Part shown: piece after piece, positions 294-19,708 of the stretch
Layout: each line of letters opens with the position of its first letter
How positions within the stretch are numbered: position 1 is the first letter of the stretch
NCBI GenBank assembly: GCA_000405345.1
Contig: ASPC01000011.1
Span: 11,035-30,742, forward strand
DNA length: 19,708 nt
Reading direction: 5' to 3'
Source of the DNA: Atribacteria bacterium SCGC AAA255-N14
GTDB taxonomy: Bacteria; Atribacterota; JS1; SB-45; 34-128
Position numbers and translations under genes: made by a program
The notes under the pieces: generated by a model
What the model was told of the DNA's origin: nothing
The model's input: the letters and a program-made list of their open reading frames with translations, nothing else
The model's database searches: none

Positions 294-387
294 TGATCGA
301 TCAAATTATTTGTTGTAGTCTATTAAAAAAATAACGATTTCGTATTTTTATAATTACTAATAGTATAAGATATGACAGGGAATGGAT

Positions 388-530
388 GTGCCGGCTCAAT
401 AATTCGGTAACTTTTTCTAACTTATCGTAAGGGGTCTGATAAGTTCAGATTCCCGATGTCTTCTCAAATGATTAGGATATGGCAGTAGGCGAGCATTTAT
501 TATTCTTTCATAATATTTTAGAAATTATAA
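388..530 (+). repeat. 143-bp local repeat, copy A
   Basis: This segment aligns along its length with 2290-2431. Shared blocks include AATTCGGTAA, GGTCTGATAAGT, ATGTCTT, ATTAG-ATATGGCAG and TATTTTA-GAAATT. I estimate about 75% identity by eye. It ends about 50 bp before the start codon of the TPR gene. Copy A can form the hairpin AACTTATC/GATAAGTT (414-421 with 438-445), which copy B does not keep intact. It may be a mobile repeat, a tRNA-derived relic or a shared leader. Confidence 0.7.
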
Positions 531-4317: not shown

Positions 4318-6088
<1,771 letters not shown>

Positions 6089-6412
6089 ATGGAACATCAG
6101 AATAAATCAAAAGATATAAAGCAGGGTTTTCTCAAAAAAATCGAGAAAAAAGAAAAACGGAAATTAAGGGCTCGAGACAAAAAATATCAGGCTATCTGGT
6201 TTGGTATGGGTTCGTTCGGGGTGATTGGCTGGTCAGTGATGGTACCGACCGTGATTGGCATTGCAGTGGGTATTTGGGCTGATAAGAAGTGGCCGGGTCA
6301 TATTTCCTGGACCTTGACTTTTCTCTTTTTGGGAATCATTCTTGGCTGTATCAACGCCTGGTACTGGGTGGAAAAAGAACGAAAATCAATTGAAGAGGAA
6401 AACGAAGAATGA
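6089..6412 (+). CDS. atpQ: N-ATPase accessory membrane subunit AtpQ (AtpI-like)
   Basis: The protein has 107 residues. A 35-residue very basic N terminus (KKIEKKEKRKLR) precedes two membrane helices, about residues 43-68 and 73-92. The segment between and within them, GIWADKKWPGHISWTL then GCINAWYWV, resembles the small AtpI-like/AtpQ family always found between epsilon and AtpR in N-ATPase operons. The family is thought to help assemble the c ring or supply Mg2+; that role is known only by analogy with AtpI. The start codon directly abuts the atpC stop, and its own stop overlaps the atpR start in ATGA, so the genes are translationally coupled. Confidence 0.85.
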   Translation: MEHQNKSKDIKQGFLKKIEKKEKRKLRARDKKYQAIWFGMGSFGVIGWSVMVPTVIGIAVGIWADKKWPGHISWTLTFLFLGIILGCINAWYWVEKERKSIEEENEE

Positions 6413-6699
6413 ATCTTAGCATTTATAGCTTCTTATATTTGTTCATCGGCCTGGGATTAGGACTATTTTATTTTGGCGGTTTATGGCTGACTATTAAAAA
6501 TATGAATCAGGCTCGTTCGCCAATTATATTAACCTTGGGAAGTTATATTTTAAGAATAGCTGCCGTGTTTTTTGTATTAATCTATATTGCCCGTCAGGGT
6601 GATTGGGGAAATATTTTAATCCTGTTGGTCGGATTTATTATCGCTCGTATTTTTTTAAGTAGAAGGATTGGGAAAACAAAAAAGGGACCAAAGCAATAA
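6409..6699 (+). CDS. atpR: N-ATPase accessory membrane subunit AtpR
   Basis: The protein has 96 residues with three predicted membrane helices, about residues 4-28, 39-62 and 66-85. GLGLGLFYFGGLWLT in the first helix, an arginine within the second (YILRIAAVF) and FIIARIFLSRR near the third match the AtpR family, which occurs only in N-ATPase operons. The family's molecular role is unsettled; proposals include placing a conserved arginine next to the c ring during assembly. The gene overlaps atpQ by 4 nt. A purine-rich GGGGGTGGGG follows before atpB. Confidence 0.87.
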   Translation: MNLSIYSFLYLFIGLGLGLFYFGGLWLTIKNMNQARSPIILTLGSYILRIAAVFFVLIYIARQGDWGNILILLVGFIIARIFLSRRIGKTKKGPKQ

Positions 6700-6727
6700 T
6701 ATTTGAATAGGGGGTGGGGAATTAAAA

Positions 6728-7441
6728 ATGGAAATAAGTCCGGATGCTATTATTTTATTTAAGTGGAATGGAATTCATCTTAACGCCACGATTTTTTTTA
6801 CCTGGGTAGTCATGCTAATACTTATTTTAATCAGCTGGCTGGCTACCAGAAATTTAACCATCGGGCCTAAAATCACTCGCTGGCAAAATTTTTTGGAAGT
6901 GATTGTTGGTTACATACGGCAGCAGGTGAAAGAAATTACCCAGCAGAATCCGGACCCTTTTATTCCTTTTTTAGGCACCCTATTTTTATTTATTTCAGTA
7001 TCCAATCTGTTGGCTATTATCCCCGGTTATCAGGCTCCGACCGGTTCATTGTCCACTACCAGTGCGCTGGCCATTTGCGTATTTTTTGCCATACCTATTT
7101 TTGGCATTGCCAAAAAAGGGGCGCTGGCTTATTTTAAACATTACCTGGAGCCTTCTATTTTCATGGCGCCTTTTAATGTGATTGGCGATTTTTCCCGTAC
7201 GCTGGCCCTGGCGGTCCGATTATTCGGGAATGTGATGAGCGGCTCATTGATTGTGGCGGTTTTATTGATCATCACCCCCTTGTTTATACCTATTGTGATG
7301 CAGGTTTTAGGATTATTAATTGGTCAAATACAGGCTTATATCTTTACCGTGCTAGCCACGGTTTATATTGCTTCGGCAACACGGATAGAAAATAAGCCGG
7401 AACAGATAGAACAAAAGGAAGGGAGTAAAGAAAATGAGTAG
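6728..7441 (+). CDS. atpB: N-ATPase Fo subunit a
   Basis: The protein has 237 residues with about six hydrophobic segments, a stator subunit of the membrane sector. The essential ion-path arginine lies in LAVRLFGNVMSG (R164), and the upstream GDFSRTLAL element is typical of a subunits. Near the C terminus, IGQIQAYIFTVLATVYI contains the conserved Q-x-Y-x-F element. The gene has a strong ribosome binding site (GGGGGTGGGG, about 14 nt upstream) after a 28-nt gap from atpR, so translation may be reset here for the Fo genes. Its end overlaps atpE by 8 nt. Confidence 0.95.
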   Translation: MEISPDAIILFKWNGIHLNATIFFTWVVMLILILISWLATRNLTIGPKITRWQNFLEVIVGYIRQQVKEITQQNPDPFIPFLGTLFLFISVSNLLAIIPGYQAPTGSLSTTSALAICVFFAIPIFGIAKKGALAYFKHYLEPSIFMAPFNVIGDFSRTLALAVRLFGNVMSGSLIVAVLLIITPLFIPIVMQVLGLLIGQIQAYIFTVLATVYIASATRIENKPEQIEQKEGSKENE

Positions 7442-7703
7442 TATTGATATTATCGGTGCGGTTTCTATTATTACTGCGGGAATCACCATTGCCATTGGTT
7501 CGATAGGTCCCGCCATAGGAGAAGGGATGGCCCTGGCCCGGGCATTGGGAGCGATTGCTCAACAGCCGGATGAAGCCAATACCATTACCAGAACATTATT
7601 TGTGGGATTGGCCATGGTTGAATCGACGGCGATTTACTGTTTGGTCATTTCAGTCATTCTTATTTTTGCCAATCCTTTCTGGAATTATGTTTTAAGTCTT
7701 TAG
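7434..7703 (+). CDS. atpE: N-ATPase Fo subunit c, Na+-type rotor protein
   Basis: The 89-residue hairpin has two membrane helices and a polar loop ALGAIAQQPDEA containing the conserved Q-P. The glycine-rich first helix reads AIGSIGPAIGEG and holds a carboxylate at E30, where many Na+ c subunits have glutamine. The second helix has the ion-binding E63 in VESTAIY. E63, S64, T65 and Y68 correspond to the Na+ ligand set E-S-T-x-x-Y defined in Na+-translocating c rings. E30 with E63 makes this a two-carboxylate type, seen in some Na+ rotors. I therefore infer Na+ coupling. A good AAGGGAG site precedes the start, inside atpB, consistent with the high copy number needed for c. Confidence 0.96.
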   Translation: MSSIDIIGAVSIITAGITIAIGSIGPAIGEGMALARALGAIAQQPDEANTITRTLFVGLAMVESTAIYCLVISVILIFANPFWNYVLSL

Positions 7704-7712
7704 GGGGTTAAT

Positions 7713-8507
7713 ATGCTTATAGATTCATTTACTATCATTGCCCAAATCATTAATTTTTTAATCCTGATCTATCTATTGAAACGATTTTTATTTAATCGGA
7801 TTATTCAGATTATGGATGAGCGGGAAAAGCAAATCACCGACCAGATGCAAGATGCTAAAACAGCAAAAGAGACAGCTCAAAAAGAATTGGATGAACAACA
7901 AAGGATAAGAGAAGAACTGCAGGAAAAATGGAACGAGATGCTTGCTCAGGCCAAGAAGGATGCCCAAAAGAAGCGGGAAGAATTGGTAAAGGATGCCAGA
8001 AGTAAAATTGATGAAGAGCAAAAAAATTGGAGAGAGGCGATATTAAAACAGCGCACCGCTTTTTTAAGAGACCTTCGCCATTTATCCTGCGAGCAGGTGT
8101 GTCAGATGAGCAGAAAGGTTTTAGCTGATTTAGCCGATGAAAAATTGGAAAATCAGCTGATTGAAAATTTCTTGATCCAGTTGGGGAAGTTGAGCAAAGA
8201 GGAAAAAGATGATTTTATCCGGTTTATCAATAAAGATGAGCGGAAGATATGGGTAGATAGCAGTTTTAAACTGACCGGCAAAAAAGAATCCGAGATCAGG
8301 AAAATACTGGAAGAGATAATCGGCGATAAGGTTGAAATCAATTTTAAGGTTTCTCCTAAATTGATTTGCGGCATTGAAACGCGAACAGAGGGTAAGAAGA
8401 TTTCCTGGAATATTGAAAACTATTTAGATGGACTGGAAGAGCAATTAAAGAAAGCTTTTACTGAATTCAGTTTTCAAGAATCGGATGTCGAGAAGAAAGA
8501 AAACTAA
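7713..8507 (+). CDS. atpF: N-ATPase peripheral stalk: subunit b with delta-like C terminus
   Basis: The protein has 264 residues, about 100 longer than an ordinary b subunit. One N-terminal membrane helix (about residues 5-24) is followed by IMDEREKQI and a long charged coiled coil to about residue 120. From about residue 150 the sequence changes character. SPKLICGIETRTEGKKISW followed by IENYLDGLEEQL resembles the C-terminal segment of delta subunits. No separate delta gene (atpH) is present in the operon, so this protein probably does both jobs: holding the alpha3beta3 head and joining it to subunit a. Longer b subunits that replace delta are known in N-ATPases. A GGGGGTTA ribosome binding site lies before ATG 7713. 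Confidence 0.9.
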   Translation: MLIDSFTIIAQIINFLILIYLLKRFLFNRIIQIMDEREKQITDQMQDAKTAKETAQKELDEQQRIREELQEKWNEMLAQAKKDAQKKREELVKDARSKIDEEQKNWREAILKQRTAFLRDLRHLSCEQVCQMSRKVLADLADEKLENQLIENFLIQLGKLSKEEKDDFIRFINKDERKIWVDSSFKLTGKKESEIRKILEEIIGDKVEINFKVSPKLICGIETRTEGKKISWNIENYLDGLEEQLKKAFTEFSFQESDVEKKEN

Positions 8508-8556
8508 TCTGATTTGGATGGATTAGGATGTCATTTATGGTTATGTGGGGGTATTG

Positions 8557-10143
8557 ATGGATAATACAACGAAAGAGATAGATACTTTATCTTTAAAAGA
8601 AAATTTAAATAGGACTTTTTCCAGTATGAATCGCGTGATCAAACAACAGAAAGCCTCCTTATATATACAGGAAATCGGGATTGTATCTGCAGTAGGCAAA
8701 GGTATTGTCACAGCAAAAGGGTTACCGGAAGTAAAGGCAGGGGAAATCGTTATTTTTAAAGACCGTCAGCGGGGCATGATCTTTAATCTGGAACCGGGCA
8801 AGGTAGATATTGTTCTACTTGATGATGCGAAGGGGATTAAAGCCGGAGATGAAGTGAGAAGAACAAACCAGGTTATGGATGTGCCGGTTGGCGAATCATT
8901 GTTGGGAAGGGTCATTGACCCGGTATGCCGTCCCCTGGATGATTTGGGAACCTTAAGGACCATGGAAAGATATCCCATTGAGCGTGAATCTCCTCCTATT
9001 ATGGATAGAGAACCGGTAAATGTTCCTTTGCAGACGGGTATTTTAGTCGTCGATGCCCTGGTACCTATTGGCCGGGGACAGCGGGAGCTTATCCTGGGAG
9101 ACAGACAGACCGGAAAAACAACGATTGCCGTGGATACCATACTTAACCAAAAGGATAAAGAGGTTATTTGTATTTATTGTGCTGTCGGTCAAAAGTTATC
9201 TTCGGTGGCCAGAGTCATTGCTCAACTTAAAAAATCAGAAGCAATTAAATATAGTATAGTCATGGTAGCATCAGGAGAAGATACACCCGGCTTAAATTAT
9301 ATTGCTCCTTATGCTGCGACCAGTATCGGTGAATATTTTATGGAAAGAGGGAAAGATGTTTTAGTCATCTATGATGATTTAACCCATCATGCCCGCTCTT
9401 ACCGGGAGCTGTCGCTTTTATTAAGAAGGCCGCCTGCCCGGGAAGCCTATCCCGGAGATATTTTTTATATTCATTCCCGTCTTTTAGAAAGGGCGACTCA
9501 TCTGAAGAAAGAAAAAGGTGGCGGTTCTTTAACTGCTTTGCCCATTATCGAAACCCAGGCACAAAATTTATCAGCTTATATCCCTACCAATCTTATTTCC
9601 ATTACCGATGGTCAAATTTATCTTTCCCCTCAATTATTCCAGGGAGGGCTGTTGCCGGCCGTGGATGTGGGGAAGTCAGTTTCCCGGGTAGGAGGAAAAA
9701 CGCAATTAGCTTCCTATCAAGAAGTAGTGGGCAGCCTGCGTTTAACTTATTCTCAATTTCAAGAGCTGGAAATCTTTTCCCGCTTCGGCACCCAGTTAGA
9801 TGAGAGTACCATAAAAATCCTGGAAAGAGGAAAAAGAATAAGAGAGATTTTAAAACAGAATCAATACGCTCCCTACTCAGTGATGGAACAAATAACCATT
9901 CTGCTTATGGTAAACCAGGGATTATGGGATGGGGTTTCGGTTGAAGATATTAAAAAAAGGATCATAGAAATAAAAAAGAATTTGGAAGACAGATTTCCCC
10001 AATTGGAAGAAAAAGTGATGAATAATAAAAAACTGGATAGTGATGAAGTAAAAAGGATTCTTGATTTTGTGGAAACAACCATTTTAAAGAGAGAGGAAGC
10101 CCAGCCAAATGCAGATGCTGGAAGCGATTCAGAGAAAAATTGA
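8557..10143 (+). CDS. atpA: N-ATPase F1 subunit alpha
   Basis: The protein has 528 residues from ATG 8557. A GTG four codons earlier is in frame, but GGGGG at 8547-8551 overlaps it and fits the ATG as ribosome binding site. The P-loop is GDRQTGKT (residues 181-188). The arginine finger that reaches the beta catalytic site is R377 in SVSRVGG. The N terminus carries an extension of about 20 residues before the usual helix. The sequence between the P-loop and R377, including the GEYFMERGKDVL and YDDLTHHARSYRELSLLLRR segments, is typical of alpha. Its 3' end overlaps atpG by 35 nt, an unusually long overlap that couples the two genes. Confidence 0.97.
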   Translation: MDNTTKEIDTLSLKENLNRTFSSMNRVIKQQKASLYIQEIGIVSAVGKGIVTAKGLPEVKAGEIVIFKDRQRGMIFNLEPGKVDIVLLDDAKGIKAGDEVRRTNQVMDVPVGESLLGRVIDPVCRPLDDLGTLRTMERYPIERESPPIMDREPVNVPLQTGILVVDALVPIGRGQRELILGDRQTGKTTIAVDTILNQKDKEVICIYCAVGQKLSSVARVIAQLKKSEAIKYSIVMVASGEDTPGLNYIAPYAATSIGEYFMERGKDVLVIYDDLTHHARSYRELSLLLRRPPAREAYPGDIFYIHSRLLERATHLKKEKGGGSLTALPIIETQAQNLSAYIPTNLISITDGQIYLSPQLFQGGLLPAVDVGKSVSRVGGKTQLASYQEVVGSLRLTYSQFQELEIFSRFGTQLDESTIKILERGKRIREILKQNQYAPYSVMEQITILLMVNQGLWDGVSVEDIKKRIIEIKKNLEDRFPQLEEKVMNNKKLDSDEVKRILDFVETTILKREEAQPNADAGSDSEKN

Positions 10144-10996
10144 AAGTGCCCAGGATTTATATTCTGTGGTTAAAACCATGAAGGCATTGGCGGCAGTGAA
10201 CATTCATTATCATGCGCGCGCCGTAGAGGCCATTACCGAATATCACCAATCCATTGAGATAGGTTTCCAGGCATTGTTAAAGGAAAAACCGGAAATATTA
10301 AAAAAACCGCTATTAAAAAATGAAAGACGAATGGGAGTCATTATCTTTGGCTCGCAAAGAGGAATGGCCGGTAAATTTAATGTGATGGTGGCTAATTCCT
10401 TTATGGAGTGGGAAAAAGGTAGCACTTTCGATTATGCTCAATTAAAAATAGCGGTTACCGGAGAGAGAGTCGAAGAACAGTTAAAAGAAATTGGTTACCA
10501 ACCGGCAGCCAGGATTGATTTTCCTGAATCCAGGTATAACCTGAATAGCGCTATTCAAGAATTACTGGTATTGGTGGAGTCATGGCGGTTTCGGGAAAAA
10601 ATAGATGATATTTATTTATTTTATAATAAGCTGAAAAGAGGAGTAATCTTTGAGCCCTTTCAATTTCATCTATTCCCCCTGGATCAGGAATGGTTACGGG
10701 AATTAACTTTAAGAAAATGGCCTTCCCGTAATTTCCCATCATATACCCTTCCCTGGGAACAGCTGCTCTATTCCTTCATCCATCAATTTTTTTACATTTC
10801 CTTATATAGGGCTTTTATCGAGTCGATGGCCAGTGAGAACGCCAGCCGTTTAACGGCCATGCAGAAAGCTGAAGAGAACATCGAGGAACGTTTGGATAAT
10901 CTGAACGCTCAATTTAACCGCCAACGGCAAAATTCGATTACCGAAGAATTATTGGATATCGTTGCCGGTTTTGAAGCCCTGGCAAAATCTATTTGA
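10109..10996 (+). CDS. atpG: N-ATPase F1 subunit gamma
   Basis: The protein has 295 residues, the rotor shaft of F1. The N-terminal helix contains KIESAQDLYSVVKTMKALAA, matching the conserved gamma coiled-coil motif (R/K-I-x-S-x-x-x-x-x-x-I-T-x-x-M). The C-terminal helix has the hallmark ASENASRLTAMQKAEENIEE, followed by the N-x-x-RQ-SITEELLDIVAG segment. The middle domain is divergent, as is usual in this branch. The start lies inside atpA, with AGAGAGGAAG about 11 nt upstream. This is the last structural gene of the ATPase. No terminator is visible after it, and the methyltransferase begins about 60 nt later. Confidence 0.95.
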   Translation: MQMLEAIQRKIESAQDLYSVVKTMKALAAVNIHYHARAVEAITEYHQSIEIGFQALLKEKPEILKKPLLKNERRMGVIIFGSQRGMAGKFNVMVANSFMEWEKGSTFDYAQLKIAVTGERVEEQLKEIGYQPAARIDFPESRYNLNSAIQELLVLVESWRFREKIDDIYLFYNKLKRGVIFEPFQFHLFPLDQEWLRELTLRKWPSRNFPSYTLPWEQLLYSFIHQFFYISLYRAFIESMASENASRLTAMQKAEENIEERLDNLNAQFNRQRQNSITEELLDIVAGFEALAKSI

Positions 10997-11761: not shown

Positions 11762-13108
11762 TTAAGGTAACAAAGAATGAATGTCATAGGAAAAAGTGGG
11801 ATAACCATAGACCGTGGTTTGGATTTGTTCCACTGTAAGCTGATGACGCATGGCCAGTGAAAATAAATTTATGACTTCCTCCGCATGATGTCCCATCAAA
11901 TGGGCTCCAAGTATCTGATGGTTTGACTTATCAATTAATATTTTAGAAGCAGAATACTTTAAACCCAATCGTCTTGAAGCTATCCAGTTAGAGGTATCAT
12001 TAAAATGTTTCTCAAAATCAATTCCTCTTTTAAGGGCTTCTTCTTCATGAAGACCCACTGAAGCAACAGAGGGTATGGTAAATAATACACTGGGAACGAC
12101 ATGATAATTGACTTTTTCCATTTGCTTTTTAACGATTTGAGCTGTAATCAAGCGTGCCTCCATATCCGCCACAGGCGTTAAAGGAATACCGTAAGCATTT
12201 ACATCTCCTGATACATAGACTGAAGGATTAGATTGGCTCCGAAGGAATTCATCTACCAGAATACCTCTCCTGTCACGGGAAATATTTCCGGCTTCCAGGT
12301 TTAATCCCTCTAAATTAGGGACTCTGCCTGCGGAATGAACGATTAAATCAGCGGTGTATTCATTCCCTTCTTCTTTTCCTGTATAGACTTTCAGTTTTTT
12401 CCCTAACTTCTCTATCCTCTCAACATCCTGATTCATTTTAACCTCAATACCGATTTCTTCTGATGCCTTCATGAGCAGACGAATAATATCCGGATCAAAT
12501 TTGTTCAAAGTCTGGTTTCCACGCTGTAAAACAGTGACTTTGGCACCAGCCCGAGCGGCAATATGGGCAAATTCAAAGGCAATATAACCACCGCCCACAA
12601 AAAGAACTTCTTCCGGTAATCGATTAAGCTCTAAAAAACATTCGCTGTTACAAAGTAAATCCTCTCCGGGAATATTGAGTTCCCGGGGCCTGGCACCGGT
12701 GGCAACCACGATACATTTACCCTCAATCAGCTCATCACCGACCCGAATGGTCTTTTCATCTGAAAACGATGCTTTTCCCATATAAAGTTCAACACCTATC
12801 TCCCGATAATATTTTTCATTGCTTTTGGGAATGGGTTGGGTAAATGTCCTTTTAAACCGCATGAGTTCCGGCCAGTCAATCTTGACGTGGCCCACTATTC
12901 CTTTTCCTTTCATGTCCTTAAACCGGGCCACCACTTCCGAGGCATGCACCAGTACTTTTTTCGGATTACAACCTTTCAAGGCACAGGTACCGCCTAGAGG
13001 TCCAGTATCCGCCAGGGCAACACTCAAACCCGCATTTCGGCACTTGATGGCAATAGTGCCCCCCGCAACACCACTTCCAATGACCACTAAATCATATGTC
13101 TTACTCAT
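11762..13108 (-). CDS. Flavin disulfide oxidoreductase (dihydrolipoamide/mercuric reductase-like)
   Basis: The protein has 448 residues and a near-perfect ribosome binding site, AAAGGAGGT, on the minus strand (13114-13122). The FAD fold is G11-x-G13-x-x-G16 in VVIGSGVAGG. The redox disulfide is C42-x4-C47 in GGTCALKGCNPKK. The NAD(P) fold is VLFVGGGYIAFEFA in the middle, and the second FAD motif is VYVSGDVNAYG. It therefore belongs to class I pyridine nucleotide-disulfide oxidoreductases. Near the C terminus, where glutathione reductase and lipoamide dehydrogenase have H-P-x-x-x-E, this protein reads YGYPTFSYD, so the His-Glu catalytic pair is missing. The natural disulfide or other substrate is therefore unclear. 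An exact inverted copy of codons 27-129 lies at the right edge of the window. It is transcribed toward the ATPase operon and convergent with it. Confidence 0.9.
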   Translation of the reverse strand: MSKTYDLVVIGSGVAGGTIAIKCRNAGLSVALADTGPLGGTCALKGCNPKKVLVHASEVVARFKDMKGKGIVGHVKIDWPELMRFKRTFTQPIPKSNEKYYREIGVELYMGKASFSDEKTIRVGDELIEGKCIVVATGARPRELNIPGEDLLCNSECFLELNRLPEEVLFVGGGYIAFEFAHIAARAGAKVTVLQRGNQTLNKFDPDIIRLLMKASEEIGIEVKMNQDVERIEKLGKKLKVYTGKEEGNEYTADLIVHSAGRVPNLEGLNLEAGNISRDRRGILVDEFLRSQSNPSVYVSGDVNAYGIPLTPVADMEARLITAQIVKKQMEKVNYHVVPSVLFTIPSVASVGLHEEEALKRGIDFEKHFNDTSNWIASRRLGLKYSASKILIDKSNHQILGAHLMGHHAEEVINLFSLAMRHQLTVEQIQTTVYGYPTFSYDIHSLLP

Positions 13109-15058: not shown

Positions 15059-16798
15059 ATGGTTAAACCGTATAACAAAAAAAATCATCCAGGTAAAGAT
15101 AAACAGGTTATTTCTTTGGTGTTATGTGGTGCAGCTGGGCTTGGAATACAAACTGTTGAAATGTTATTGACCCGGATTTTTAAATTAGGTGGTCTCAACG
15201 TATTTGCCACCAAAGAATATATGTCTCGAGTAAGAGGCGGAAGTAATTCTACTCAGATAATCATATCTTCCAAGAAAGTATTGGCTCCCTTGAATCGAAT
15301 AGATATTTTAATTCCTCTGGATCAGTCTGCCCTGTCTCACTTAAAGAAAAGGATCAGTAAAAATACGGTTATTTTAGGAGAAAAAGAAAAAATTCTTCCT
15401 GAAAGAGAAATTTTAGACGTTCCCTTTACGAAAGTGGCGAAAGAAATAGGAAATCCAATTTTTGCAAATATTGTGGCAGTGGGTTTAATCGCTGCCATTT
15501 TCGGGATAAAGCAGCAAATTCCTCTTGAATATACAAGGAAACATTTTTTTACTAAAGGAGAAAAAATTGTTCAGGGAAATATTGCTGCCATTAAAAGAGG
15601 GTATGAGCTTGCCTCTGATTTAATAAAAAAAGGAAGTTTGGCCCAACTTTCTATACCTGTTCCTGACCCCGAACAGAATATTCAAGAAGAAATTATTCTA
15701 AATGGAGCTGAAGCAGTTTCCTTAGGGGCAATTTCCGGGGGATGTCATTTTATTTCCGCTTATCCCATGTCTCCTTCTACCGGAGTCTTAACTTTCCTTT
15801 CCCAGCATGCAGAGGAGTTCAACATCATTGCCGAGCAAGCCGAAGATGAGATAAGTGCTATTAATATGGCCCTGGGGGCCTGGTATGCAGGAGCCCGAGG
15901 GATGATCACCACATCCGGTGGCGGACTCGCTTTAATGGAAGAAGGAGTTAGTTTGGCTGGTATGTTAGAATTGCCTGTTGTAATACATCTTGCCCAAAGA
16001 CCCGGTCCGGCAACCGGTTTACCCACCAGAACGGAGCAGGGAGATTTAGAGTTGGCTTTGTATTCCGGTCATGGAGAATTTCCCAGAATTATTTACGCTC
16101 CCGGAGGAATTCAGGACTTATTTTATCTCACACAACGCGCTTTTAATTTAGCTGATAAATATCAAATTCCGGTTTTTATACTAACTGACGAATATCTAAT
16201 GGATTCTTATTACAATACAGTAGAGTTTGATTTAAGCAAAACAAAAATTGAAAAATATATAAGCAAAACAAAAAAGAATTATAAAAGATATCAGTTAACC
16301 AAAAATGGCATATCAGATCGAGGCATACCCGGTTGGGGAGAAGGGTTGGTATTAGTAGATAGTGATGAGCACGATGAATACGGTAGAATTACCGAAGATT
16401 TAAATTTAAGAACGAAAATGGTGGATAAGAGGTTAAAAAAATTGGAAGAAATAAAGAAAGATGAAATTTCTCCTGAATTAATAGGAAACCAGGAATACGA
16501 AATTCTCATCGTCGGTTGGGGTTCCACCTATCATATTATAAAAGAAGCTCTGGAGAGTTTAAAAAAACCCAATATCTCTTTCTTGCATTTTAAACAAATT
16601 TATCCTTTGTCCTCTATAACTGAAGATTATCTTAAAAAAGCTAAAAAAGTTATTGTAGTGGAAAACAATGCCACCTCTCAATTCAGTAAATTATTGAAAC
16701 TTTTTGCCAACACAGAGGTAGAACATAAAATACTTAAATACAATGGATTACCTTTTTATGTGGATGAACTCATTGGTGAATTGGAAAAAGCCATTTAA
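15059..16798 (+). CDS. korA: 2-oxoacid:ferredoxin oxidoreductase, gamma-alpha fusion subunit
   Basis: The protein has 579 residues. The N-terminal gamma domain (about 17-190) opens with [11 protein letters not shown] and contains [11 protein letters not shown], both typical of the gamma part. The alpha domain (about 205-579) has [20 protein letters not shown] near residue 226, [23 protein letters not shown], and the [13 protein letters not shown] segment. With korB it makes a two-subunit enzyme that oxidatively decarboxylates a 2-oxoacid to an acyl-CoA and reduces ferredoxin. Substrates may be 2-oxoglutarate or another 2-oxoacid; the sequence alone does not decide. The start is set by GAGGTGAG just before ATG 15059. 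A weak promoter (TTGTAG, 18 nt, ATTAAA at 15007-15036) is possible. korB follows 16 nt later. Confidence 0.92.
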
Positions 16799-16814: not shown

Positions 16815-17675
16815 ATGGAAAATTTATTTGATTTGGAAGATAAAAATATAGACCTGGCCTGGTGTCCGGGATGTGGTAATTTTGGAATACTTCAAGCTTT
16901 AAAGAGAGCGCTTACTGAATTGAAAATAAAACCTGAAAGTTTAGTGCTGGTTTCAGGAATAGGGCAAGCTACCAAAACGCCGCAATACTTTAAGACCAAC
17001 ATGTTTAATGGATTACATGGAAGGGCATTGCCGGTAGCTACTGCCATAAAGGCATGCAATCCCGAACTAACAGTTATTGCTGAAGGGGGAGATGGTGACA
17101 TGTATGGGGAAGGGGGTAATCATTTTTTGCACGCGATTCGTCGAAATCCGAATCTAACCAATATCGTTCATAATAATATGGTTTATGGCTTAACAAAAGG
17201 ACAGGCTTCTCCTACCAGCCAACCGGGTTTTAAAACCCCTGTCCAGGTCAATGGCGTATTTTTAGAACCTTTTAATCCTTTGGCGGTGGCCATAGCTCTT
17301 AATGCATCTTTTGTGGCGAGAGCTTTTATCGGAGATGAGGAACAGACTATAGAGATATTAAAGGAAGCCATTAAACATAAAGGATTTGCTCTGGTAGATA
17401 TTTTTCAACCCTGTGTATCTTTCAATAAGCTAAATACCTATCCCTGGTTTAAGGAAAAAACATTTTATTTAAAAAAACATGATCCTTATGATAGGTTGGC
17501 AGCTTTTGAGCAGGCTGTACAAACAGAAAAGTTGCCTCTGGGGATTTTCTATAAACACCCGGGTAAAAAAACTTTTGAAGAAGGTATAAAAGCCTATGAA
17601 ACAGATAAGGCACCCATAATAAATAGAATGCCTGATAGAAAAAAACTGGAAAAATTGATAAAAGCAAAGAGATAA
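16815..17675 (+). CDS. korB: 2-oxoacid:ferredoxin oxidoreductase beta subunit (TPP-binding)
   Basis: The protein has 286 residues and a strong AAGGAGG site upstream. The N terminus has C17-x-x-C20 in [10 protein letters not shown], two of the [4Fe-4S] ligands. The thiamine diphosphate and Mg2+ motif is [12 protein letters not shown] (about 92-103), followed by [19 protein letters not shown], a stretch diagnostic of KorB-type subunits. C200 in FQPCVSF is the likely last cluster ligand. The third ligand, usually a cysteine in S-G-I-G-C, is glutamine here (SGIGQATK, Q51). C81 in KACNPEL is the only other cysteine in that part. The beta subunit binds TPP and catalyses decarboxylation; electrons leave through its cluster to ferredoxin. 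It forms an operon with korA and probably with msrA, which starts 51 nt downstream. Confidence 0.93.
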
Positions 17676-17726: not shown

Positions 17727-18506
17727 ATGAGAAATTTAGTAATTTTTGTTATCGTTATTTTTTGTTTAATTCAGGTAAATGGAAATTTTTTCAAGAATAT
17801 AAGTCATTCTAATATTATTTTTGCATGTTCAACGAATAGCCGGGAAGGCAATATTCCCATAATCGATCGGAATATGCCTACTAATATTGAAACGGCTACT
17901 TTTGCCATGGGTTGATTTTGGGGACCGGATAGTTTATTCGGAATTTTACCTGGTGTGATTCGCACCCGAGTTGGATATGCCGGCGGAGAAAAAATAAACC
18001 CGACTTATCATGACCTGGAAAATCATAGCGAAACCATTCAAATCGATTATGACCCGGAAAAAATAACCTACCCCCAGTTGCTGCAAATATTTTGGGATAA
18101 CCACAATTGCAAATTGAAATCTTTCAGCCGACAATATATGTCTATTGTTTTTTACCATAATCTAAAGCAGAGAGATGCGGCTATCCAATCAATGCAGGAA
18201 CAAGAAAAAAAACTGGATACAAAATTAGTTACCGAAATCGTTCCATTGACTCAGTTCTATAGGGCAGAAGATTATCATCAGAAATTTAGGCTGCAGCAAA
18301 ATGAGGAGATAAGTGGCGAATTAAAAAAAATATATCCAAATTTTCAGGATTTTGTAGATTCTACGGCTGTAGCAAGATTGAATGGTTTTATCGGAGGGCA
18401 TGGCACATGCGAACAGTTAAAAAAGGAAATAAGTACCTATGGATTAACTGAAGTTTCGGAGAAATACCTGTTAAATTTGGGTTGCCCATCGATCCAGGAT
18501 CAGTAG
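17727..18506 (+). CDS. msrA: Methionine-S-sulfoxide reductase with selenocysteine at the catalytic site (TGA read-through)
   Basis: The protein has 259 residues from ATG 17727, eight nt after AAAGGTGG; in-frame GTGs at 17715 and 17718 are alternatives. A hydrophobic N terminus (about residues 3-17) suggests export or membrane anchoring, and IIFAC (C34) might even be a lipobox. The MsrA signature A-T-F-A-x-G-C-F-W-G appears as TATFAMG-TGA-FWG, so TGA 17913-17915 replaces the catalytic cysteine codon at residue 63. After TGA the frame stays open for 591 nt with clean MsrA sequence: TRVGYAGG, NPTYHDL, HSETIQIDYDPEKI and GGHGTCEQL, which supplies a possible resolving cysteine. A SECIS-like hairpin begins 9 nt after TGA. 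It should repair oxidised methionine in an exported or surface protein. The alternative is a recent nonsense mutation or sequencing error. Sec-MsrA is already known in clostridia such as Alkaliphilus oremlandii. Confidence 0.82.
17913..17941 (+). promoter_or_regulatory. UGA Sec codon and bacterial SECIS-like hairpin in msrA
   Basis: TGA lies at 17913-17915. The segment CCGGATA (17925-17931) pairs with TATTCGG (17935-17941) in seven pairs, one of them G-U, around the apical loop GTT (17932-17934). Sixteen nt separate TGA from the loop, and the loop starts with G. Both features match the published bacterial SECIS consensus (16-37 nt spacing, G in the first two loop positions). The selenium machinery itself (selA, selB, selC, selD) is not in this window. 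Confidence 0.72.
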
Positions 18507-18542: not shown

Positions 18543-19241
18543 ATGAATAAAATAGTAAATGAAATCAAAGAGATATGCCCACAAGAAAATTATGAAATTG
18601 GGTATGCTTCACTCTCAGGATTATTAAAACCAGAATACGCAAAATATAAATATGGCATATCATTAGCCAGAAAATTAGATGATCAAATTATTAATCAAAT
18701 TTCCAATGGTCCTACTGATTTATACTATGATCTCTATTGTAACATCAATGATGAGTTAAACATGAAAACCAAAGCAATATGCAATTTATTGAAAACCTAT
18801 CATATCGAAGCATATCCAATCAAAGCAACGGTAACAGATAGTGAGCTTAATGATACCTATGAAAAAACATTACGATATTCTTTTTCTCACAAATTGGCAG
18901 CAACCAGATCAGGAATAGGATGGATTGGGAAAACAGATTTACTCGTAACCTCAAGATTCGGTCCAAGAGTTAGACTTGCCAGTGTATTAACAACAGTAAG
19001 CATTTCTAAAAGCGGGATTCCAATAAATACAAGTCAATGTGGAAGTTGTAATGTTTGTGTGAGTCATTGTCCTGCTAAAACTGCCACTGGACAATTATGG
19101 ACAACTTCAATTGATAGAGATGTATTTTTTGATCCTTTTAAATGCAAAGAGTATTGCAGAAAAATATCAGCAGAAAGGATCAAAAAGGAAGTAAGCATAT
19201 GTGGAATATGCTTATCTGTTTGCCCGAAAGGTAAAAAGTAG
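18543..19241 (+). CDS. QueG-like double [4Fe-4S] cluster protein
   Basis: The protein has 232 residues; AAAAGGAAT lies just upstream of ATG 18543, 36 nt after the msrA stop. The central SHKLAATRSGIGWIGKTDLL followed by RFGPRVRLASVLT matches the cobalamin-binding core region of epoxyqueuosine reductase relatives. The C-terminal third has two bacterial ferredoxin-type cluster motifs: C-G-S-C-N-V-C-V-S-H-C-P, then FKCKEYC with CGICLSVCPKG. QueG proper is about 310-380 residues with a HEAT-like tail; this short form lacks it and ends right after the second cluster. It may be a reductase acting on another substrate, so a queuosine role is only a possibility. An iron-sulfur protein next to Kor and Msr genes fits anaerobic redox metabolism. 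Confidence 0.78.
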   Translation: MNKIVNEIKEICPQENYEIGYASLSGLLKPEYAKYKYGISLARKLDDQIINQISNGPTDLYYDLYCNINDELNMKTKAICNLLKTYHIEAYPIKATVTDSELNDTYEKTLRYSFSHKLAATRSGIGWIGKTDLLVTSRFGPRVRLASVLTTVSISKSGIPINTSQCGSCNVCVSHCPAKTATGQLWTTSIDRDVFFDPFKCKEYCRKISAERIKKEVSICGICLSVCPKGKK

Positions 19242-19398: not shown

Positions 19399-19708
19399 GG
19401 GTTTGAGTGTTGCCCTGGCGGATACTGGACCTCTAGGCGGTACCTGTGCCTTGAAAGGTTGTAATCCGAAAAAAGTACTGGTGCATGCCTCGGAAGTGGT
19501 GGCCCGGTTTAAGGACATGAAAGGAAAAGGAATAGTGGGCCACGTCAAGATTGACTGGCCGGAACTCATGCGGTTTAAAAGGACATTTACCCAACCCATT
19601 CCCAAAAGCAATGAAAAATATTATCGGGAGATAGGTGTTGAACTTTATATGGGAAAAGCATCGTTTTCAGATGAAAAGACCATTCGGGTCGGTGATGAGC
19701 TGATTGAG
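19399..19708 (+). repeat. Exact inverted copy of part of the flavin oxidoreductase gene
   Basis: These 310 bases equal the reverse complement of 12722-13031 with no mismatch that I can see, and they continue to the window's edge. In frame they encode oxidoreductase residues 27-129, including the C-x4-C redox pair, but not the first FAD glycine motif. An in-frame ATG at 19397 is formed at the junction, but no ribosome binding site precedes it. The fragment cannot make a working enzyme unless more sequence lies beyond. It is either a real inverted duplication or a fold-back assembly or amplification chimera. Confidence 0.9.

Follow-up and report, generated by a model that had tools for sequence, protein, structure and literature searches.

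An msrA gene from a probable Atribacterota bacterium with an in-frame UGA very probably read as selenocysteine at the catalytic residue

The stretch of DNA analysed here (the window, 19,708 nucleotides in length) carries a reading frame for a methionine sulfoxide reductase, MsrA, that is interrupted by a TGA, and the question it raises is whether this is one gene in which UGA is read as selenocysteine (Sec) or a gene that has been broken by mutation, wrongly sequenced or decoded with a different code. Read from the ATG at 17727, the frame has TGA as residue 63 and no second in-frame stop in its 260 codons. The first-pass annotation had placed the TGA exactly at the catalytic cysteine of the MsrA motif, and this position is exact, since the motif reads G-TGA-FWG and the match to the Pfam PMSR domain spans the site. 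The 591 nt that follow the triplet (17916-18506) are open, as had also been described, and lead to the MsrA C terminus and a TAG stop. That standard gene callers would split such a gene is borne out by the protein database, in which a product of 183 aa (P0006), 100% identical to the window protein, begins after the TGA; gene callers thus cut the msrA of the window at this codon. The features discussed below are compiled in Table 1.

Table 1. Coordinates of msrA, its parts and its neighbours in the window.
Feature	Position	Strand	Remarks
2-oxoacid:ferredoxin oxidoreductase (OFOR), alpha	15059..16798	+	TIGR03710
2-oxoacid:ferredoxin oxidoreductase (OFOR), beta	16815..17675	+	stops 51 nt before the msrA ATG
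msrA	17727..18506	+	259 residues if the TGA (residue 63) encodes Sec
msrA, alternative starts	GTG 17715, GTG 17718	+	
Hydrophobic N terminus, probable signal peptide	17727..17825	+	residues 1-33, by eye
MsrA catalytic domain	17886..18296	+	residues 54-190
Proposed Sec codon, in-frame TGA at the catalytic position	17913..17915	+	G-TGA-FWG motif
Proposed SECIS hairpin, CCGGATA-GTT-TATTCGG	17925..17941	+	7 bp, triloop GTT 17932-17934
Helical C-terminal part, matching the helical domain of CoMsrA in the alignment	18297..18458	+	residues 191-244
QueG-like double [4Fe-4S] cluster protein	18543..19241	+	36 nt after msrA; under the QueG curated cut-off

The identity of the enzyme was examined by domain searches run with a cysteine in place of the TGA residue. 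Both Pfam PMSR (PF01625; 143.3 bits against a cut-off of 23.7, E 9.2e-42, across the site) and TIGR00401 (120.6 bits against 108.1) recognise the protein, and its best match in the PDB by phmmer (E 6.4e-54) is a natively Sec-containing enzyme, CoMsrA, the selenoprotein MsrA of Clostridium (Alkaliphilus) oremlandii (PDB 4lwj, 4lwk, 4lwl, 4lwm, 4u66), described in passages of PMC4333827. The two share the GUFWG active site and align without gaps, residues 54-244 of the window protein corresponding to residues 7-197 of CoMsrA. According to the same passages, the active site of CoMsrA comprises GCFWG together with Y47, E55, Q89, Y90, H137 and Y140; five of these six further residues are identical in the window protein (Y94, E102, Q136, Y137 and H184), while Tyr140 is replaced by Phe187. 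The gene product is therefore very probably, as judged from homology, a peptide-methionine (S)-S-oxide reductase with Sec as its catalytic residue.

The window protein also differs from CoMsrA in several respects. It has a probable signal peptide, comes from a different phylum and contains the cysteines C13, C34, C128, C228 and C253, whereas CoMsrA has none besides its Sec in the account of PMC4333827. With C128, C228 and C253 lying in its enzyme domains, it falls outside the 1-Cys type to which CoMsrA belongs; C253 is nearly invariant within the close clade. The passages of PMC4333827 further state that the C-terminal helical domain is conserved in some selenoprotein MsrAs. The Pfam model of this domain (MsrA_helical, PF20939) gave 15.4 bits with the window protein, below its cut-off of 23.7, and the phmmer alignment with CoMsrA extends through residue 244. 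An AlphaFold model of moderate confidence (mean pLDDT 69.9), taken as secondary evidence, has helices in the C-terminal part, in agreement with that alignment. A Foldseek search with it returned the CoMsrA entries first, but the rmsd is large (about 11.5 for 205 aligned columns), which makes the domain placement in the model untrustworthy.

The same codon was compared in related genes, for which a scan of genome contigs found at least 595 matching stretches, at least 561 of them relatives. We kept the 80 best loci, which were chosen by similarity and without random sampling and are 40-58% identical to the window over the best segment, and left L078 out of the codon count because its site was not covered. 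When the remaining 79 loci were aligned, the catalytic codon was TGA in 66, TGT in 10 and TGC in three, and in none was it TAA or TAG. The Cys-encoding relatives, from Dehalococcoidia, Halanaerobium, Haloarcula and other loci, are homologous to the window over most of the protein and keep the same residues on both flanks of the catalytic site, differing from it in having TGC or TGT there. Because exchange of this kind, 66 TGA against 13 TGT or TGC, occurs at the homologous sites, and because none of the other window genes checked (19 with msrA) has an internal TGA, the TGA at the catalytic codon is above chance. The TGA loci of this best-80 set are labelled as Chloroflexota, Nitrospirota, Deltaproteobacteria/Desulfobacterota, Bacillota, Planctomycetota, Acidobacteriota and Thermoanaerobaculia, Actinomycetota, KSB3 and one unplaced bacterium, and include the named isolates Desulforamulus aeronauticus, Clostridium tunisiense, Dethiosulfatarculus sandiegensis and Salipaludibacillus daqingensis. 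The view that Sec-MsrA is documented in a few clostridia and algae, from which the first-pass annotation started, is too narrow in the light of these 66 genes from many phyla. Among viral contigs, 24 pattern matches included no MsrA relative.

These counts bear on the possibility that the window holds a fresh pseudogene, in which a nonsense mutation has turned a Cys codon into TGA and the cell makes no full-length protein. A random nonsense mutation could have taken any of 121 one-substitution routes from a sense codon of this frame to a stop, yet the TGA lies exactly at the catalytic codon, the 260 codons contain no other in-frame stop, and the same codon is TGA in 66 of 79 homologues drawn from the best 80 of at least 561 relatives. 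We regard a pseudogene as improbable, and the points that speak for it are given below where they arise. An error of sequencing or assembly, with TGA standing for TGT or TGC, appears more improbable still. The window does contain an exact inverted repeat of 310 nt (12722-13031 and 19399-19708), the second arm of which reaches its last base; this is probably an assembly artefact at the contig end, or else a recent inverted duplication, and such an artefact would lend the error some credence. Against it, TGA recurs in 66 homologous loci of other assemblies, and the truncated P0006 represents 84 member sequences and 9 contigs clustered at 90% identity (totals for the cluster, not member by member).

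The protein database offers a view of closer relatives. A search with the window MsrA gave 6210 matches, the best 120 of which were examined; none of the best 80 genomic loci reaches the identity level of the metagenome proteins among them, so that the species of the window lies outside the scanned genome collection as far as the search patterns extend. Three close full-length relatives (P0002-P0004), 82-86% identical to the window, have Cys at the site. This belongs to the exchange between TGA and Cys codons, and it is also what would be expected if the TGA had recently arisen from a Cys codon in a pseudogene. Across the sorted rows of the best 120, Cys occupies the site in 95 and Trp in seven. 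Fifteen shorter metagenome relatives included in a tree lack the site, and 14 of them begin 14-19 residues past it, a pattern that argues against a lone nonsense mutation and suggests that the nearest metagenome relatives also have TGA there; the fifteenth, P0017, begins further downstream. The database favours Cys rows because TGA rows are cut. On the tree, built with FastTree and used as a hint only since many branches are weak (P0006, P0097 and P0103 were left out), 12 changes between Sec and Cys fall on the rows of known state, 16 when the rows of presumed state are coded as Sec, and six on the loci alone.

Two of the close relatives, P0005 and P0007, are predicted to have Trp at the site, as a gene call under code 4 would yield, and Trp is also found in five more distant relatives. 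This would fit a reassignment of UGA to Trp or Gly in the organism, which we consider the least probable of the alternatives. Among the 19 window genes checked, four end in UGA (4318-5703, 6089-6412, 8545-10143 and 10109-10996), with the msrA TGA as the sole internal one, and reassignment is rejected since it is contradicted by UGA termination on the same contig. The Trp of P0005 and P0007 is probably a TGA translated with code 4.

Reading UGA as Sec requires dedicated machinery, and we scored SelB as a match to TIGR00475 over its cut-off in 65 of the 66 genomes with a TGA locus (that of L020 was left out) and in the 13 genomes with a Cys locus. SelB is present in 58 of the 65 (33/36 and 25/29) and in one of the 13, a co-occurrence with a Fisher p of 1.4e-8 when genomes are treated as independent, although relatives are not. 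Two TGA genomes without SelB over the cut-off, G072 and G078, have strong tRNA-Sec matches (72.9 and 69.7 bits). In the 49 genomes searched for tRNA-Sec, matches just over the cut-off also occur in Cys genomes, such as G051, G052, G053 and G060, and several SelB-bearing TGA genomes have no match well over it, so that the tRNA-Sec cut-off was not used as a test in this set. In G076:C5 and G085:C148, a second SelB gene has tRNA-Sec-like matches (47-51 bits) immediately beside it, which are perhaps unusual types of tRNA-Sec. Searches of the whole window found no tRNA and no Rfam match at the gathering threshold.

The window was placed by its ATP synthase. Among 50 genomes of one phylum, the Atribacterota by labels, its AtpA is 94% identical to that of G031 and 92, 92, 89, 89 and 88% identical to those of five others; over 6,834 nt, a 16-kb stretch of G031 is 92.8% identical to the window. 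OFOR alpha, tried as another host marker, reached at best 58% in the 50 genomes and was of no use for placement. The labels are those of L048 and L055 of the best 80 loci and of P0178; in addition, a query with the SelB of G031 gave, among the 14 listed matches with an organism or sample name, six Atribacteria/Atribacterota, five named simply "bacterium", two metagenomes and one Actinobacteria. The ATP synthase operon itself (window 4318-10996, 92.8% identical to that of G031, subunits named by eye) begins with the beta and epsilon subunits, an order that we take to be that of N-type ATPases. A diverged noncoding repeat (about 70-76%) occurs at window positions 380-520 and 2284-2424 and, in G031, upstream of the ATP synthase genes (L173 14591-14896). 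Apparent internal TGA or TAA codons in AtpA of G035, G037 and G040 lie in alignment columns 525-528 of 532 and were set aside as earlier natural ends.

SelB exceeds its cut-off in only 16 of the 50 genomes, which counts against the Sec reading. The 24 genomes G027-G050, comprising all AtpA matches of at least 68% and all OFOR matches, were searched further, and tRNA-Sec, SelA and SelD each exceed their cut-offs in 18 of them; SelD of these 18 genomes has an internal TGA in 14 and none in four. At AtpA identities of at least 88%, G031, G032, G035 and G040 have all four components over cut-off, G037 combines a TGA-containing SelD with no more than a partial match to SelB, and in G034 none of tRNA-Sec, SelA, SelB and SelD is over cut-off. 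In G031, a close relative, the four genes lie within 4.5 kb (contig C186, 52946-57409), with one TGA inside selD and a tRNA-Sec in which TCA can be read by eye at the expected place of the anticodon. Also against the Sec reading, msrA has no close full-length counterpart in the 50 genomes: the three matches with the best E-values are 47-49% identical, well short of the metagenome relatives, and G031 keeps only a remnant. This is a 3' piece of 176 nt that aligns to window 18106-18281 at 89% identity and with a gap of one base. Consequently, msrA seems dispensable in the lineage, and the truncated remnant in so close a relative favours a pseudogene. In G031 (L173 4872-5595), this MsrA piece lies right against the end of a gene for a P-type ATPase and continues into an MsrB domain.

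The exchange of TGA and Cys codons at the exact residue in many phyla, the co-occurrence with SelB, the Sec genes of a close relative and the continued use of UGA as a terminator in the window make a single gene with UGA read as Sec by far the best reading. This reading, first proposed in the first-pass annotation, is strongly supported; the enzyme would be a Sec-containing S-sulfoxide repair enzyme, presumably exported, and we give the reading a probability of about 0.93.

The element that would direct Sec insertion is less clear-cut. A hairpin of seven pairs with a GTT loop begins 9 nt past the TGA, with 16 nt between the TGA and the loop, just as the first-pass annotation had it. The bacterial SECIS model set out in PMC13188914 allows loops of 3-9 nt and stems of 4-16 bp, and expects a G among the first two loop bases, a spacing of 16-37 nt and a minimum free energy of at most -7.5 kcal/mol. 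The hairpin agrees with four of these five features (3-nt loop, 7 bp, GTT, 16 nt), its spacing being at the edge of the range, and misses the energy limit: the two stretches that have it as their minimum-energy fold give -6.3 and -6.8 kcal/mol, and the hairpin folded alone gives -5.0. Another structure is the minimum-energy fold in two of the four stretches folded around it, the pair probabilities of its stem vary by stretch from about 0.4 to 0.9, and none of the four stretches is more stable than its dinucleotide-shuffled versions (z 0.23 to 0.94). When synonymous codons were resampled, 2.6% of 20,000 samples matched its score. The hairpin is thus only moderately beyond chance.

In the homologues, the loop of the best-scoring hairpin falls at +19 or +20 in 63 of 66 TGA loci, most commonly as GTT at +20 (43), and resampling gives p < 0.05 in 37 of the 66, compared with one of the 13 Cys loci. 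The exception, a Dehalococcoidia Cys-MsrA with TGC (L001 5407-5470), has a perfect SECIS-like hairpin of 12 bp and is likely, to judge from this structure, a relic of a Sec gene turned to Cys. The family hairpin at +19/+20 is absent from the window, whose own loop lies at +16, and this absence is a further point for a pseudogene. All 15 TGA-containing selD genes retrieved from the phylum (14 genomes) carry a GGT or GGG triloop at +27 on a stem of 8-10 bp, from which we infer that the lineage uses triloops starting with G, as in the window. Given the energy over the limit, the missing family hairpin and the G-starting triloops of the lineage's selD, the SECIS of the window is plausible and at the same time the weakest link of the Sec reading, the evidence for it being moderate. 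We offer only tentatively, as a rather doubtful scenario, that the SECIS was repositioned: the family hairpin would have been lost and a new GTT-triloop hairpin formed 4 nt upstream, the codon staying Sec while near relatives changed to Cys, and the product would act in the envelope as a Sec-MsrA whose selenenylsulfide cycle, running through C253, sets it apart from CoMsrA.

The N terminus of the window protein looks by eye to be of the signal-peptidase I kind, and VFA-S or VSA-D occurs near the end of this stretch in some relatives; C34 is not kept in P0002-P0004. A crude rule, which asks for a start codon immediately ahead of a hydrophobic stretch, marks an export-like N terminus in 40 of the 66 TGA loci, 11 of them with a lipobox-like motif, and in eight of the 13 Cys loci. 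On this rule export-like N termini are common in Sec-MsrA, for which an exported or anchored form had been thought less usual. Export of the window MsrA is probable from these features.

OFOR beta and msrA may possibly belong to one operon in the window, and among 67 loci (the 66 TGA loci and the window) there is no general conserved neighbour of Sec-MsrA. The largest neighbour cluster, 15 loci all on the reverse strand near the gene, was discarded as probably shadow frames of msrA itself. Another cluster, absent from the window, is found at six of the 67 loci, on the same strand in five; its member in L004 (7339-7965) is an MsrB (SelR domain, by Pfam for this member only) with a hydrophobic N terminus.

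In the Sec reading, translation would proceed as follows. SelB loaded with Sec-tRNA(UCA) would be recruited by a stem-loop just 3' of the UGA, probably CCGGAUA-GUU-UAUUCGG, and its delivery would insert Sec at residue 63 in the cell from which the window comes. The product would probably be exported through its N-terminal signal peptide and would repair S-sulfoxidised methionines in envelope proteins, probably of an Atribacterota bacterium. Sec would attack the sulfoxide, releasing methionine and leaving a selenenic acid, which may be reduced directly by some reductant, as CoMsrA is by glutaredoxin and not thioredoxin (passages of PMC4333827), or through a cysteine such as C253. In those passages, the Sec form of CoMsrA is 20-fold more active than its Cys version.

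Sec-MsrA is an already known kind of enzyme, which is present in more bacteria than the first-pass annotation assumed. A review of 2026 lists it with the motif GUFWG/H and Sec at the catalytic position (PMC13188914), a 2006 survey reports it in Syntrophobacter fumaroxidans (PMC1794560), the GOS study counts nine sequences (PMC2398784) and a selenoproteome survey includes the bacterial form (PMC9312934). In the passages concerned, all four describe Sec at the catalytic position, as in the window, and name few holders, unlike the many phyla found here. In PMC13188914 and PMC9312934 "atribacter" is not found, and in a full-text collection that lacks most subscription journals no paper joins "Atribacter" with "selenocysteine" or "selenoprotein"; this is weak evidence of novelty.

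The Sec reading explains why MsrA is truncated in the annotation and adds a probable selenoprotein to the Atribacterota. The switching between Sec and Cys among close relatives, together with the hairpin of the Dehalococcoidia gene, makes the gain and loss of Sec testable, and, if the repositioning of the SECIS were true, SECIS turnover and Sec/Cys switching would have taken place inside one genus-like group. Since the Sec form is more frequent than the Cys form in the sampled MsrA relatives (the best 80 of at least 561) and many have export-like N termini, anaerobes may commonly use selenium to repair their envelope proteins.
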